Assembly (NCBI GenBank): GCA_029779695.1
Contig: JAKPAB010000200.1
Span: 1-64,000, forward strand
Reading direction: 5' to 3'
Source: Bacillota bacterium
GTDB taxonomy: Bacteria; Bacillota; Clostridia; Lachnospirales; Lachnospiraceae
DNA: 64,000 nucleotides
A program made the translations under genes and the position numbers. Below are positions 5,595 to 57,322 of this stretch, in pieces; positions within the stretch are counted from its first letter, which is position 1; each line of letters opens with the position of its first letter. Below the pieces are notes generated by a model. The model was not told the origin of the DNA. It was given only the letters and a program-made list of their open reading frames with translations, and searched no databases.

Positions 5595-5637
5595 AACGAG
5601 GTGCAGGCAAGCACAGCTTGCCTGCACCTCGTTTTTT
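5595..5637 (+). terminator. strong rho-independent terminator after the EF-G-like gene
   Basis: A perfect 18 bp stem (AACGAGGTGCAGGCAAGC and its complement) closes on the three-base loop ACA and is followed by TTTTTT. It is much more GC-rich than its surroundings. Confidence 0.95.
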
Positions 5638-17288: not shown

Positions 17289-20228
17289 ATGGCTAATAAT
17301 ACAGGTAAAAGAAAAAAAACGAATAAAAATACAAACCAAAAATCAACGTTAAAAAGGCAAGATAAAAGTGTTGAAAATAGTGTTGAGATCAGAAATGATA
17401 TTATTGTAATTGGAATCATTTTTGTTTGTGCACTTTTATTTATTAGTAATTTGGGTATGGGCGGAGCACTTGGCAATGTATTGTCAGGATTCTTTTTTGG
17501 GATCTTCGGTCTATTTAATTATTTAATCCCTATTTATATTTCAATTGTAAGCGTGTTTTGCCTAATCAGAAAAGATGAAAAGGACACTCGGATAAGAGCT
17601 GTCTTTTTTGTGTTACTTATTTTTATTATCTGTATGTTTATCTCTCTTTTTATGGACGGAAGCGATACGATAGGACCTGTAAGTTCCTATTTATATTCAA
17701 AAGATAATCACAGCGGTGGCGGTTTCTTCGGAGGAGCTCTTGCAGAGTTTTTTGTGACGATATTTGGAATCGTAGGAGCATATATTATTGATATTTTTTT
17801 AATGATTTTATCTATAATAGCAATCTCCGGCTTCTCAGTTGTAAATTGGGCCAGAGAGATAATACAGGAAAAAAAGAGAATTTATGATCAGAATAAGAAT
17901 ATCGATCGTGAAGAAAAAAGACTAAGAAGAGAAGAAAGAGAAAACGAGAGACAGCTTCGTAGGCAGGAAGAAAGAAAACGTGATAATGAACTTTTGAAAC
18001 AAAAAGAGGCAGAAGAAGAAAGCCCTATTCATGTGTTAAATCTTGATGTTCCAAAGAAGCAGAGTAGAGCTAATTCAAACATACATCCAGGCAGACCGAC
18101 CAGAAATGATGCTAATCTAAAACAGAATGATAATGCTTTACCTGAAGTAGATCCGAGTCTTCCTAGAAGAGATCGACAGATCACAGGTATGACATTTAAT
18201 ACAGAAATTGCTCCAATTGAAGGTCTGTCCAAATCGCAATCTGATGAGATGAATGAAATTAAAATGGATTCATACAAGACTTATTCAATGAATTCTTCTT
18301 CACCAAAAATAAAAGAAGAAAATCTGAATAAATCAAGTGATGATTCATTGTTTGATGAAGTTAAAGTTAATACTGTTACTGTTCATTCAGATAAAACATC
18401 TGAATCGATTCTTGATGTATTAGACAATATTACATCTAGTGATAATTCTGATGTGGAATCTGTTTTGCCTGAGGCTACTGTGATTTCAGATGATACTTCA
18501 ATCATCAAAAAAGTGGATATTTCTAATGATATTTCACAGAAAAAAAGGCCTGTTTCTATTCCATCACAGAATATGAGGGATGTTTCGACGGAAAATTCAT
18601 TTAATAAGTTTAATGATAGTAATTCAAGTCAAGCTCCAATAGCCGATATTAAGAAGCCTGAGATTACTGCTAACACATTTGTTAATGAAAATAGACCATA
18701 TGTATTTCCGAGTATTGATCTATTGAAAAATTTAACTAGTAATAATAGTTCTTCCGGACACAGTGATATGCAAAAAACTGCAGATAAGCTTGAACTTATT
18801 TTGAAAAATTTTGGAATCAATGCCAGAGTAACAGGATTTAGTCATGGCCCATCAGTTACTAGATATGAGCTATTACCTGAGATGGGTGTAAAAGTTGCCA
18901 AGGTTCTTAATCTTCAAGATGATATCAAGATGAATCTTGCCGCAACAGATATTAGGATTGAGGCTCCAATACCTGGCAAAAATGCTATTGGCATTGAGGT
19001 ACCTAACAAAAAAAGAGAAGCGGTTGGTTTGAGAGGATTGGTTGATTCAAAAGAATTTAAGTCATCTAAGTCAAAAATTGCTTTTGGGCTTGGTCTCGAT
19101 ATTGCCGGTAATGTTATCATATCTGATATTGCCAAGATGCCTCATTTGCTTATAGCAGGTGCAACCGGATCAGGAAAATCAGTTTGTATCAATACAATTA
19201 TCATGAGTATTCTGTATAAGGCAACTCCGGATGAAGTCAAGTTTATTATGATCGATCCTAAGGTTGTAGAACTGAGCGTATACAATGGTATACCACATCT
19301 TCTTATTCCGGTTGTCACAGACCCTAAAAAGGCTTCGGGTGCGCTTCAATGGGCTGTCAAGGAAATGATGGATCGTTATAAGAAATTTGCCGATTGTCAT
19401 GTGAGAGACATTGATGGTTATAATTCCAAGATTATCGATGGAAGGCTTAAAATAGTAAATAACGGACAGGATATTGAGATAGCTGCCAAGAAGATGCCGC
19501 AACTGGTCGTTATTGTTGACGAGCTTGCGGATCTTATGATGGTTGCATCCAAGGAAGTTGAAGAAGCTATATGTAGATTGGCCCAGCTTGCAAGAGCTGC
19601 AGGTATACATATAGTTATTGCTACCCAAAGACCTTCAGTTAATGTTATTACAGGACTTATAAAGGCAAATATGCCATCAAGAATTGCACTTTCAGTTACA
19701 AGTGGTATAGATTCTAGAACGATCATTGATATGGTAGGAGCAGAGCGATTATTGGGTCATGGTGATATGCTCTATTATCCGCAGGAAATTAGTAAGCCGA
19801 TAAGATTGCAAGGAGCATACGTTGATGATGAAGAAGTCCAAAGAGTAACATCATTTTTAAGAAGCAGTAATACACCGTCTGTTGAAGATTCAGAGGAACT
19901 AAAGAGAATCCAGGAAGATGTTGAGAAAAGTTCAGTTTCTTCATCTGAAGAAGGGTATGTTTCCATTGGTGGAGACGAAGGTGGATTTGATAAAGAAAGA
20001 GATGATTTCTTTGCAGATGCTGCAAGACTTGTAATCGACAAAGATAAAGGTTCAATAGGAATGCTTCAGAGAAATTTTAAGATTGGATTCAATAGAGCAG
20101 CAAGAATTGTAGATCAGCTAGAGGAGTTTGGAGTGGTTGGTCCTGAAGAAGGAACCAAGCCCAGAAAAATATTGGTTACTATACAGGAATTTGAACAGAT
20201 GTGGGAAAATGAGGGAGGTTCAAATTGA
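17289..20228 (+). CDS. ftsK: FtsK/SpoIIIE DNA translocase
   Basis: This septum-bound pump moves chromosomal DNA during division or sporulation. The 979-residue protein has four membrane segments in residues 38-180, a charged coiled stretch (about 190-240), a long serine- and aspartate-rich linker to about 480, the RecA-like motor with GATGSGKS and a Walker B region ([12 protein letters not shown]), and a C-terminal gamma winged-helix ([22 protein letters not shown]) that reads orienting DNA motifs. In Xer systems this gamma domain or its motor can activate recombination, which is of interest given the XerS-like gene at 54-55 kb. AAGGT precedes the ATG closely. fhs follows with a one-base overlap of its ATG with the stop. 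Confidence 0.95.
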
Positions 20229-53158: not shown

Positions 53159-54082
53159 ATGAGTGATCTCATACAAAAATACATAGCCAATGATTTAGAT
53201 GTATATAAGCGCTTAGATACATTTTTAGTTGAGTTAAACACTGATTATTCCAGAAGTCATTACTCTGATCTGATCAAAAAAGGTAATATTCTTGTAAATG
53301 GAAAAACAATTCAAAAGCCAGGATACAGGATATGTGAAAATGATGAACTTACTGTAAATATTCCTGAGCCTGAGTCTCTAACTGTTGAAGCTGAAAATAT
53401 ACCTATTGAAATATTATATGAGGATTCTGATGTTATTGTTGTAAATAAGCCAAAAGGTATGGTCGTACATCCCGCAGAAGGACATTATAATGGCACGCTA
53501 GTTAATGCACTTTTATGGCACTGTAAGGATAGCCTAAGCGGAATAAATGGTGTTTTACGTCCTGGAATCGTACATCGAATTGATATGAACACTACAGGAT
53601 CTTTGATTGTCTGCAAAAATGATAATTCTCATAGAAAAATAGCAGAACAGATTAAAAATCATACTGTAAACCGGATATATGTTGGAATAGTGCATGGTAA
53701 CCTAAAAGAAGAAGAAGGAACTATTAATGCGCCTATTGGTAGGAGCAAAAACGATAGAAAAAAAATGGCTATTTCTCTCGAAGGAAAAGAAGCCATTACT
53801 CATTATAAAGTTTTAAAAAGACTGAACGGTTATACTTATGTTGAATTTAAACTAGGAACAGGGCGAACTCATCAAATTAGAGTACACATGGCATCCATAC
53901 ATCATCCTTTATTAGGTGATGATGTATATGGCCCATCAAAATGCCCAATTAAGGGACTAGATGGACAATGTCTTCATGCGTGGAAAATAGGATTTGTGCA
54001 TCCATCATCTGAAAAATACCTCGAATATGAAGCGCCAATTCCAGAATATATGCGTGAACTTTTAACCAAGCTAGAATTATGA
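53159..54082 (+). CDS. rluD: RluD-type 23S rRNA pseudouridine synthase
   Basis: The enzyme isomerises uridines in 23S rRNA. An S4 domain lies at residues about 15-75 and the catalytic region reads PGIVHRIDMNTTG, with the catalytic aspartate in HRIDMNTTG, where HRLDKDTSG is usual. GRTHQIRVHM is the second family motif. The 307-residue length is typical. It is the last plus-strand gene before the orientation switch, and an AT-rich hairpin follows it. Confidence 0.94.
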   Translation: MSDLIQKYIANDLDVYKRLDTFLVELNTDYSRSHYSDLIKKGNILVNGKTIQKPGYRICENDELTVNIPEPESLTVEAENIPIEILYEDSDVIVVNKPKGMVVHPAEGHYNGTLVNALLWHCKDSLSGINGVLRPGIVHRIDMNTTGSLIVCKNDNSHRKIAEQIKNHTVNRIYVGIVHGNLKEEEGTINAPIGRSKNDRKKMAISLEGKEAITHYKVLKRLNGYTYVEFKLGTGRTHQIRVHMASIHHPLLGDDVYGPSKCPIKGLDGQCLHAWKIGFVHPSSEKYLEYEAPIPEYMRELLTKLEL

Positions 54083-54108
54083 TCATTATTTAAATCTTAT
54101 CCATATTA

Positions 54109-54179
54109 AATCTAAATAAATCTAAATTTAAAATTATAATCTAAATTTAAATCACAAAAAATCATAATCTAAATCTAAA
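54109..54179 (+). repeat. AT-rich cluster of AATCTAAA repeats
   Basis: Five copies of AATCTAAA occur within 71 bases between the convergent rluD and XerS-like genes (from 54109, 54119, 54138, 54166 and 54172), the last running into the hairpin. The whole 54083-54250 gap is over four-fifths A and T by eye. Confidence 0.75.
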
Positions 54180-54221
54180 ACATAATAAATCTATTTATAT
54201 ATAGATTTATTATGTTTTAGA
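54174..54221. terminator. long AT-rich hairpin between convergent genes
   Basis: A perfect 20 bp inverted repeat (TCTAAAACATAATAAATCTA and its complement) surrounds TTTATATA. It is likely to be a bidirectional transcript end, though the stem is almost all A-T pairs and no long T tract follows. Confidence 0.55.
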
Positions 54222-54250
54222 TACTTTACAAATCAAACCTAGAACAATGC

Positions 54251-55315
54251 TTAATTTTCGCGGTTAAAATCAACCGCATTTCTAGCCTGTCTTTTATGCT
54301 CATCCTCAATAGCTGCATAATAATCAATTGTTGTATTTATATTCTCATGTCCGAGTACATCGGCCACAAGCCTAATATCACCTGTTTCACGATAAAGAGC
54401 AGTTCCATATGTACTTCTTAACTTATGAGGTGTTATTTTCTTGTTTGGTACAGCAATTCTTGCATATTTTTTTACAAGATTTTCAATTGCATCTATACTT
54501 ATTCGTTTTCCCTGTAAGGATAAAAATAGAGCAGTCTCTTGGCTATCTCTCGGAATAATATGGTTTCTTTCAAGATTTAGATAATCTGATATAGCCTCAT
54601 GAACTGCATCTCCAAAATATAGTACATCTTGACCGCCACCTTTTCGAACAATCACAAATGAGTCATCTTTTAAATTAACATCTGCAATATCAAGACCGTT
54701 ACACTCTGATACACGTATACCTGTATTAAGCATTAATGTTAAAATTGCAAGATCTCTATATTTAGTTTTATCTGCAAATTTTTTCTGTCTGTCACTCATT
54801 GAATCTGATCCATTTTTAATTGCATTTAGCACTGCACGAACTTCGTATGAATTCATTCGAATTATATTTTTGTCTTTTTTTAATTTGGGAAGTGGGACGA
54901 GACTTGTAGGATCTTCCTTAATATATTTATGTGCAATTAAATATTTATACATTCCCCTTAAAGGAGCCATACGTCTTGCAATACCTTTATTTCCATTTTC
55001 ATGATAATCATTTACATCTATATTTAATTCCAGAAAACGCTGATATTCCATTATATCTTCTGATCTAATCAAAGATAGATCATCGCAATTAAACACCTTT
55101 ATTTTTCTATTAGCTAGTGTAGGGTTCTTATCTATTAGAAATTTAAAAAAAGTTAACAAATCATATGCATATTGAATACGAGTACTTAATTGAGTGTTAA
55201 CTTCTTTGCTGTATAAAAAATCAACAGCCGGCTGTGGTAGTTCGGTCAACAGCTCACGAAACTTAACCATTTGTATCTTTTTCTTGTCTTTGTAAAAAGC
55301 AGAGTCTTTTCCCAT
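54251..55315 (-). CDS. XerS-like tyrosine recombinase
   Basis: The 354-residue protein has a core-binding N-terminal domain (to about residue 165) and a tyrosine recombinase domain with the first arginine in TGIRVSEC, HKLRSTYG, the LGHENINTT box and the nucleophile tyrosine at about 333. It is longer than XerC or XerD (about 300), and the RKGGGQDVLYFGD and insert before YRDLAILTL resemble the single recombinase XerS of streptococci and lactococci; that likeness is from memory. TATAAT lies just upstream (55334-55339). A perfect 13-6-13 palindrome is 45 bases before the start, and the gene sits where gene direction flips, so chromosome dimer resolution is a likely role. A phage-type integrase is less likely, as no phage genes are near. 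Confidence 0.8.
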   Translation of the reverse strand: MGKDSAFYKDKKKIQMVKFRELLTELPQPAVDFLYSKEVNTQLSTRIQYAYDLLTFFKFLIDKNPTLANRKIKVFNCDDLSLIRSEDIMEYQRFLELNIDVNDYHENGNKGIARRMAPLRGMYKYLIAHKYIKEDPTSLVPLPKLKKDKNIIRMNSYEVRAVLNAIKNGSDSMSDRQKKFADKTKYRDLAILTLMLNTGIRVSECNGLDIADVNLKDDSFVIVRKGGGQDVLYFGDAVHEAISDYLNLERNHIIPRDSQETALFLSLQGKRISIDAIENLVKKYARIAVPNKKITPHKLRSTYGTALYRETGDIRLVADVLGHENINTTIDYYAAIEDEHKRQARNAVDFNREN

Positions 55316-55360
55316 ATTGATTTGTTCTTTTCTATTATATATAAGGTCATTTCACTACTC

Positions 55361-55392
55361 ACTATCGGAAAAACAGATATTTTTCCGATAGT
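55361..55392. other. dif-like palindrome upstream of the XerS-like gene
   Basis: ACTATCGGAAAAA and TTTTTCCGATAGT form perfect 13 bp arms around the six-base centre CAGATA. Arms of about 11-13 bases with a six-base spacer are the architecture of Xer core sites. Neither strand has a T tract after the stem, so it is a poor terminator for plsC. It abuts a weak -35 position of the recombinase gene, so an operator is an alternative reading. Confidence 0.55.
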
Positions 55393-55445: not shown

Positions 55446-56165
55446 TCAGTTATCAAATACACCATATTCCTCCATAGTTGCAATAATAGAATTTTTAATA
55501 TTAATTGCTATCTCCGGTGTTTTCATATCTTTATAATCATCATAGTAAAATGGTTTATTAAAAATAACCTTCGTAACCACCTTTCCAATTGATAAGCTAT
55601 TAAGTGGTTTGTATGTATCAATTAGTGTAACAGGAACAATTGGACACTTTGCACGCACAGCAGACTTAAAACTTCCAGGTTTAAAATCTTGTACCTTATT
55701 GTGATTATTTTTATATCCTCCTTCTGAAAAAAGAATATAAATACGACCTTTTTTAACTTCAGAAGTGATATCATTCATTACTTCTAATCCCTGTCTTAAA
55801 TTATTAAGTTCAAGGCGCTTGGCACGTAGCATATTGACCATTTCTCGAACAAAAAACTGGTATGACTTATGTTTGTCCATCACAAAAGTACACGGCTTAT
55901 TATGGGCATATATGATCGCTGTAGCATCATATTTTCCCTGATGATTTGGGAACATAACATATCCACCATCTTTTGGTAGATTTTCAGTACCATAAATCTC
56001 TGTAATTATTTTCCCAGCTTTATTCATCGCTTGAACATTTTCCTGAGCAAATCTATATCGATCCTCTTCAGTTACTTTATGATCTTTAGCCAGGGAGCGC
56101 ATATGAGTTACCATATATGGAATACGATGCAGATTCCAAAAAATAATAATTATAAGTCTAAGCAT
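55446..56165 (-). CDS. plsC: 1-acyl-glycerol-3-phosphate acyltransferase family (PlsC)
   Basis: The 239-residue membrane-linked enzyme adds the second acyl chain in phosphatidic acid synthesis. The catalytic HX4D motif is NHQGKYD near residue 80, and the substrate loop reads FSEGGY where FPEGTR is usual. A hydrophobic N-terminal stretch may anchor it. AAAGGG precedes the ATG by four bases. It follows the yneA-like gene by eight bases on the minus strand, so it may share the SOS-controlled transcript. The altered loop suggests an unusual acyl acceptor or donor; that is inference. Confidence 0.87.
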   Translation of the reverse strand: MLRLIIIIFWNLHRIPYMVTHMRSLAKDHKVTEEDRYRFAQENVQAMNKAGKIITEIYGTENLPKDGGYVMFPNHQGKYDATAIIYAHNKPCTFVMDKHKSYQFFVREMVNMLRAKRLELNNLRQGLEVMNDITSEVKKGRIYILFSEGGYKNNHNKVQDFKPGSFKSAVRAKCPIVPVTLIDTYKPLNSLSIGKVVTKVIFNKPFYYDDYKDMKTPEIAINIKNSIIATMEEYGVFDN

Positions 56166-56707: not shown

Positions 56708-57322
56708 ATGGCATACGGTAAGATTTCACCCAAACAGCTGGAAATTCTTGAGTTTATGAAAAATGAAATTATTAATAAGGGATACCCGCCTTCGGTTCGT
56801 GAAATCGGTGAGGCTGTACATCTTAAATCTACTGCTTCTGTTTTTACTCATTTAGAGAAGTTGGAGAAAAATGGTTATATTAAGAGAGATCCTTCCAAAC
56901 CACGTGCAATTGAGATTATTGATGATAATTTTAATCTAACTAGGCGTGAAGTTGTCAATGTACCTGTTGTTGGTTATGTTGCTGCTGGTCTTCCGCTTCT
57001 TGCTGTTCAAAATATTGATAACTACTTTCCTATTCCTGCAGAATATATGCCAAATGAGCAATGCTTTATGCTCAAGGTCAAGGGAGAAAGCATGATCAAT
57101 GCAGGTATTTTAAATGGGGATACAATTCTCGTAGAGAAAACTAGCACAGCTAAAAATGGAGATATGGTCGTAGCTTTAGTTGATGATTCTGCTACAGTTA
57201 AAACATTTTATAAAGAGAAAAATCATATTCGTCTTCAGCCTGAAAACGATAATATGGATCCAATTATTGTTATTGATTGTGACATACTCGGAAAAGTTAT
57301 TGGAGTTTTTAGATTTTTTTAA
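56708..57322 (+). CDS. lexA: LexA repressor
   Basis: LexA represses SOS genes and cleaves itself when RecA is active. The winged helix fills residues 1-70 (PSVREIGEAVHLKSTASVFTHLEKLE). The Ala-Gly cleavage site lies in VGYVAAGLP; the catalytic serine is in VKGESMINAGILNGD and the lysine in TVKTFYKE region of the S24 peptidase. The length of 204 is normal. GGGAGG precedes the ATG. It is the only plus-strand gene right of 54 kb and has its own strong terminator. Confidence 0.97.
   Translation: MAYGKISPKQLEILEFMKNEIINKGYPPSVREIGEAVHLKSTASVFTHLEKLEKNGYIKRDPSKPRAIEIIDDNFNLTRREVVNVPVVGYVAAGLPLLAVQNIDNYFPIPAEYMPNEQCFMLKVKGESMINAGILNGDTILVEKTSTAKNGDMVVALVDDSATVKTFYKEKNHIRLQPENDNMDPIIVIDCDILGKVIGVFRFF

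Follow-up and report, generated by a model that had tools for sequence, protein, structure and literature searches.

A conserved palindrome beside a tyrosine recombinase gene is very probably the dif-type site of a single-recombinase Xer system in Lachnospiraceae

The window, a stretch of 64,000 nucleotides of a Lachnospiraceae genome, contains the palindrome ACTATCGGAAAAA-CAGATA-TTTTTCCGATAGT, with perfect arms of 13 bp and an asymmetric centre of 6 bp, which reads TATCTG on the strand of the neighbouring tyrosine recombinase gene (Table 1). The preliminary description had reported a perfect 13-6-13 palindrome located 45 bases upstream of the recombinase start, with no T tract after it, and we confirmed each of these points in the window; the terminator scan also passes over the palindrome. 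The palindrome is intergenic, with the recombinase gene on one side and an acyltransferase gene (55446–56165, minus strand) on the other, whose stop codon is 53 bases away. The anatomy is that of a dif-type site, with inverted arms of about 11 bp, an asymmetric centre (6–8 bp in this class), an intergenic position, and low G+C. The palindrome is found only once in the window when up to 3 mismatches are allowed, with no occurrence in 100 shuffles, and once in the whole assembly (2.72 Mb, 364 contigs). A lexA-like gene (56708–57322) is located 1.3 kb from the palindrome, on the strand opposite to that of the recombinase gene.

Table 1. Positions of the site, the recombinase gene, and associated features in the window.
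Feature	Position	Strand	Basis or remark
Tyrosine recombinase, 354 aa, presumed to be the sole Xer of the genome	54251–55315	−	
Dif-type recombination site (very probable)	55361–55392	−	Conservation, single copy, perfect palindrome
Core 28-mer	55363–55390		TATCGGAAAAA-TATCTG-TTTTTCCGATA, read on the recombinase strand
Core arms	55380–55390 and 55363–55373		
Asymmetric centre	55374–55379		
Switch of GC skew with converging gene orientations, inferred replication terminus	53998–55392	No strand	Skew, gene directions
FtsK/SpoIIIE gamma domain, within a 984-aa open frame	19995–20180	+	Single such domain in the genome

The length of a dyad alone says little, because two other dyads in the window, at 54173–54222 (22 bp arms) and at 5595–5633, are longer. 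The case for the palindrome thus rests on its conservation, position, and single copy, and not on the dyad itself. The AT-rich dyad at 54173–54222 was considered as a rival dif, as it holds TTATTATGTTTTA, which is reminiscent of a canonical dif arm. It was rejected because its perfect arms lie between the converging ends of an rluD-like gene and the recombinase gene, the nearest relatives, L012 and L013, gave no match to it, and it was called terminator-like by the terminator scan.

The site is conserved among relatives. With up to 3 mismatches allowed, TATCGGAAAAATATCTGTTTTTCCGATA is found once and only once in each of the nine genomes of the window genus (9/9), and the reversed pattern is found in none of them. 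In the eight genus genomes with a found recombinase orthologue, the site is 64–179 bp upstream of that gene, and all eight share the centre TATCTG. Outside the genus, the two arms covary, as seen in the pairs TATTCGYNAAA/TTTNRCGAATA, TATACGACAAA/TTTTTCCAAAA, and TATGCGCAAAA/TTTTACGAATA. We examined a sample of 130 loci, 80 of them named and a few of them duplicates, in which the named loci include those of Shuttleworthella satelles, Pseudobutyrivibrio ruminis, Butyrivibrio sp., Enterocloster bolteae, Blautia luti, and Dorea phocaeensis. Related 11-6-11 sites scoring above 17 bits are present in 91 of the 130 loci, all upstream of the recombinase gene, with a median distance of 142 bp from site to gene start. 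Within 1.5 kb of the gene, the rate of sites is 65% upstream, compared with 0/126 downstream and 0/129 in shuffled upstream DNA. Since the loci that were scored served in part to train the site profile, the absolute scores are optimistic, and it is the controls that carry the argument for an upstream site. In about 30% of the 130 loci, there is no clear site close to the gene; some of these are contig ends, and in some the site may have diverged or moved. A scan of 299 Lachnospiraceae genomes with the fixed pattern TATTCGNNAAA-N6-TTTNNCGAATA, which is a test independent of the trained profile, gave matches in 92 genomes and none with the reversed control. Among the matches listed, the pattern is present in a single copy per genome, with three exceptions.

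The arms are complementary across loci at 89–95% for positions 1, 3, and 6, and at 29–48% for positions 7–8. Positions 9–11 (AAA/TTT) are invariant, at least in part from the construction of the search. This pattern suits a DNA-binding protein and not an RNA stem, because positions 7–8 mismatch while the flanking positions are kept.

One relative (G254, loci L211–L212, at C1:315120 and 339710) has two dif-type sites that differ in their centres and are separated by 24.6 kb. The DNA between them spans from the recombinase side to lexA, is mostly of lower G+C, and contains glycosyltransferase-like genes; lexA is likewise about 1.5 kb from one of the sites. It is possible that the bracketed DNA is an element that integrated at dif.

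The alignment of the recombinase family shows that R201, K225, H297, R300, H323, and Y333 are invariant, and from their alignment with XerD these residues are predicted to be the catalytic set of a tyrosine recombinase. The Tyr is ten residues past the histidine of the LGH motif in 46/46 family members, compared with nine residues in the 24 rows of XerS, XerC, and XerD. The window genus has Tyr at both positions, Y332 and Y333, and from the alignment either could be the attacking residue. The enzyme had been described as XerS-like, and this is apt for its size and for the linkage of gene and site, but it is not XerS. NCBIfam XerS is the best model for the protein, but the score of 182.9 bits is below the cut-off of 267; the recombinase of a relative, G212, scores 215.5 bits. 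Furthermore, a quick maximum likelihood tree, midpoint-rooted so that the root between the recombinase family, XerS, and XerC/D is not fixed by it, places the family on a separate branch (SH-aLRT 99) and XerS on another (97). The AlphaFold model of the recombinase (pLDDT 83, pTM 0.55) matches XerA, XerH, XerD, and Tn1549 Int about equally. The nearest PDB sequences and folds are generic Xer/integrase matches, which, with a model pTM of only 0.55, do not decide the family.

Nearly all of 61 relatives, which belong to Lachnospiraceae and other families of the order, have an orthologue of the recombinase; in most of these genomes there is one strong match, with two in G011. In a class-wide sample, exactly one match at E ≤ 1e-80 was obtained in 47 of 291 genomes, some of which belong to families outside the order. 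Two complete relatives of one genus (g232) in the same family, G239 and G505, are without the recombinase, and a third, G546, has a weaker match only; loss or replacement of the system is possible in these genomes.

XerC over the cut-off was found in 0/61 genomes, and neither a XerD-like protein nor a XerC/XerD pair was found in the window genus. The best XerD match in the window genome (C163) is at 160 bits, and its neighbour, read from open frames, is a gene resembling a phage small terminase. About 24 of the 61 relatives (L061–L084) do have one XerD-like protein each, at 314–370 bits against a cut-off of 329.6, without XerC over the cut-off. Because of these relatives, the term 'single recombinase' is not universal: the earlier suggestion that such a module replaces XerC/XerD is supported for the window genus, but some related genera keep one XerD-like gene. 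A B. subtilis-type dif was found in 0/61 genomes at 3 mismatches. The protein with the FtsK/SpoIIIE gamma domain is presumed to be the activator and DNA pump. XerS over the NCBIfam cut-off (L245–L251) is also present in G873 and in genomes of 5.6–7.3 Mb from another family of the phylum, namely G633, G676, G714, and G826; XerC/XerD-like genes are present as well in several of these genomes.

The GC skew in the window is about +0.08 to +0.23 over most of the stretch between 4 and 54 kb, after which it is about −0.07 to −0.20; the cumulative skew has its peak at 53,998. Between 50 and 62.8 kb, the genes are mostly on the plus strand to the left of the site and mostly on the minus strand to the right. 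Of 40 relatives with the site and at least 7 kb on each side, 38 have positive skew ahead of the site and negative skew past it. The proposal of a candidate dif site beside the recombinase is supported. On copy number, on conservation in relatives, and on the absence of a XerC/XerD pair and a canonical dif from the window genus, the three points on which it could have failed, the outcome favours it. The site is also at a GC-skew switch, both in the window and in these relatives. Since the local direction of genes can mimic a skew flip, two single-contig relatives were sampled lengthwise in 20-kb stretches. In G217 (2,241,876 bp), the site at 1,778,563 is between skews of +0.114 and −0.094, and the sole other skew switch is at 630–720 kb, with the half-genome point from the site at about 658 kb. 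In G314 (2,856,089 bp), the site at 1,921,063 is between skews of +0.197 and −0.102, and the other switch is at 500–620 kb, with the half-genome point at about 493 kb. In each of these two genomes, the skew switch at the terminus coincides with the site, and the other switch is half a chromosome away. The evidence for the terminus position is direct in these two relatives and local in the window.

Could the palindrome have a function other than recombination? Dyads are commonly operators, and the gene start is close to the site in about 70% of loci, so the recombinase or another regulator might bind there to control the recombinase gene, with no recombination taking place. We consider this very unlikely, since the site is 0.6–6 kb from the gene in many loci and marks the skew switch genome-wide, and since the asymmetric centre is kept in the genus, as expected of a crossover region. 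Autoregulation of the recombinase may occur alongside recombination at the site. An RNA hairpin, such as an intrinsic terminator of the upstream acyltransferase gene, is almost certainly not the explanation; although a 13-bp stem with a 6-base loop just past the acyltransferase stop would be suitable, there is no T tract, the terminator scan does not select it, the site is single in each genome, and the mismatched positions 7–8 between conserved flanks in relatives are the pattern of protein binding.

Other alternatives concern the enzyme. The recombinase shares a superfamily with integrases, and relatives of the site are found on viral contigs, as would be expected if the enzyme were the integrase of an element and the palindrome its attachment site instead of a dimer resolution site. 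However, nearly every Lachnospirales genome sampled has one orthologue, at the terminus, and the recombinase is present in just 4 of 80 viral loci, probably with host DNA, which makes this reading extremely unlikely. It is also highly improbable that the recombinase and a XerD-like protein act together on the site. Such a partner would be available in the relatives with one XerD-like protein, but the window genus and many complete relatives are without it, and the arms of the window site are identical, as expected for one enzyme.

The preliminary description had pointed to a likeness to difSL, and this likeness holds. With the two sites in register, the window site and difSL, taken from the genome of L244, agree at 18/28 positions (P = 0.0035 in a comparison with random palindromes matched to the window site in composition). 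The agreement with difH is 14/28 (P = 0.155 on the same basis, not above chance), and that with B. subtilis dif and with E. coli dif is 12/28 each, at the chance level. The XerC/XerD system with canonical dif in those two species resembles the present one in its 11-6-11 site at the terminus and the FtsK gamma domain, but it has two enzymes of about 300 aa. The L244 genome encodes a bona fide XerS (557 bits) with ATCTTTCCGAAAAACTATAATTTTCTTGAAAAATA beside xerS, in agreement with the halves of difSL quoted in PMC5357621. XerS/difSL of streptococci and lactococci (PMC5357621) is like the present system in having a single recombinase of about 355 aa, the gene beside the site, and a terminus location. 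By contrast, the protein described here is below the XerS cut-off and outside the XerS clade, with one extra residue before the catalytic Tyr; the window arms are symmetric, whereas the two arms of difSL differ from each other, and its centre is given as 11 bp (PMC5357621).

The literature on XerH/difH of Campylobacter and Helicobacter (PMC2731167, PMC5241119) describes a single recombinase of about 354–362 aa, a 6-bp centre, and a site near the gene in most species, all as seen here, and FtsK dependence in H. pylori. The sequence similarity of XerH to the window recombinase is low (36.2 bits in the PDB search), and any tyrosine recombinase would give a fold match of this kind. The full symmetry of the window arms is unlike both difSL and difH. 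XerL/dif of Legionellales, as described in PMC9765430, is also an order-wide single-recombinase system that was long missed by homology, with uninterrupted inverted-repeat arms of 10–12 bp, and it is exploited by a mobile element; it is found in another phylum, and in L. pneumophila the gene and site are more than 400 kb apart. The reviews and surveys name XerS, XerH, XerA, and XerL as single-recombinase systems, and we found no mention of Lachnospiraceae in the available text of these sources (PMC5357621, PMC2731167, PMC9765430).

We conclude that the palindrome is very likely a dif-type chromosome dimer resolution site and that the neighbouring recombinase is a member of a single-recombinase family that extends across Clostridia and differs from XerS, XerC, and XerD. 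This conclusion draws on the conservation and single copy of the site, its linkage to the recombinase, its location at the terminus, the catalytic residues, and a genus without XerC/XerD. The preliminary description had placed the module in this genome, but it is not peculiar to it, being order-wide or wider. As judged from sequence, the module of one enzyme and one site very probably recurs across Lachnospiraceae and neighbouring gut Clostridia.

In the proposed mechanism, the binding, cleavage positions, and FtsK dependence are modelled on XerS, XerH, and XerL. Two monomers of the recombinase would bind, one on each 11-bp arm of the site, and two bound sites would then pair to give a synaptic tetramer. 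Cleavage would occur at the borders of arm and centre, as modelled on XerH-difH (PMC5241119), followed by stepwise strand exchange across the 6-bp asymmetric centre. The reaction would be switched on at the septum, most likely by the FtsK/SpoIIIE gamma domain, and dimeric chromosomes would be converted to monomers. Since the arms are fully symmetric, directionality would have to come from the asymmetric centre or from activation, and not from arm affinity.

Lachnospiraceae are among the commonest gut and rumen bacteria. No description of a dif site or of a dimer resolution route in Lachnospiraceae was found in the literature searched, which covered subscription papers only in part, and we found no paper there on XerS in this family. 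The best reading is that the module is previously undescribed, in the sense that no earlier description was found and priority is not certain. A linked, portable 28-bp site with one gene makes dimer resolution directly testable, and in draft genomes the module serves as a marker of the terminus. It also provides evolutionary data on the interconversion of one-enzyme and two-enzyme Xer systems, and the site is a possible landing site for genetic tools.

The pattern TATTCGNNAAA-N6-TTTNNCGAATA is also present on at least 120 viral contigs, with one match for the reversed control. Among the 80 viral loci inspected (L263–L342), 4 have the host recombinase and 2 a weak match resembling XerC, and the flanking DNA examined has neither in the other 74; the 4 with the recombinase are probably a host flank or a prophage edge. 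The genus-type and Blautia/Dorea-type patterns gave no viral matches. At the free arm positions 7–8, the viral dinucleotides are mostly the same as those in chromosomal sites. These observations suggest that the viral sites are candidate phage mimics of dif, as in IMEX elements, and such mimicry is a possible explanation for the persistence of integrase-less phages. A broader proposal is that a further single-recombinase Xer lineage, with the Tyr spacing longer by one residue, accounts for dimer resolution in most Lachnospirales and in several further families of Clostridia, and that many gut and rumen phages carry mimics of its site, possibly integrating without an integrase of their own; we regard the chances for and against this proposal as evenly balanced. 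The neighbours of the viral sites that were tested are terminase, portal, and primase genes, and a search for related terminases led to gut phages and to phages of Eggerthella and Clostridioides.
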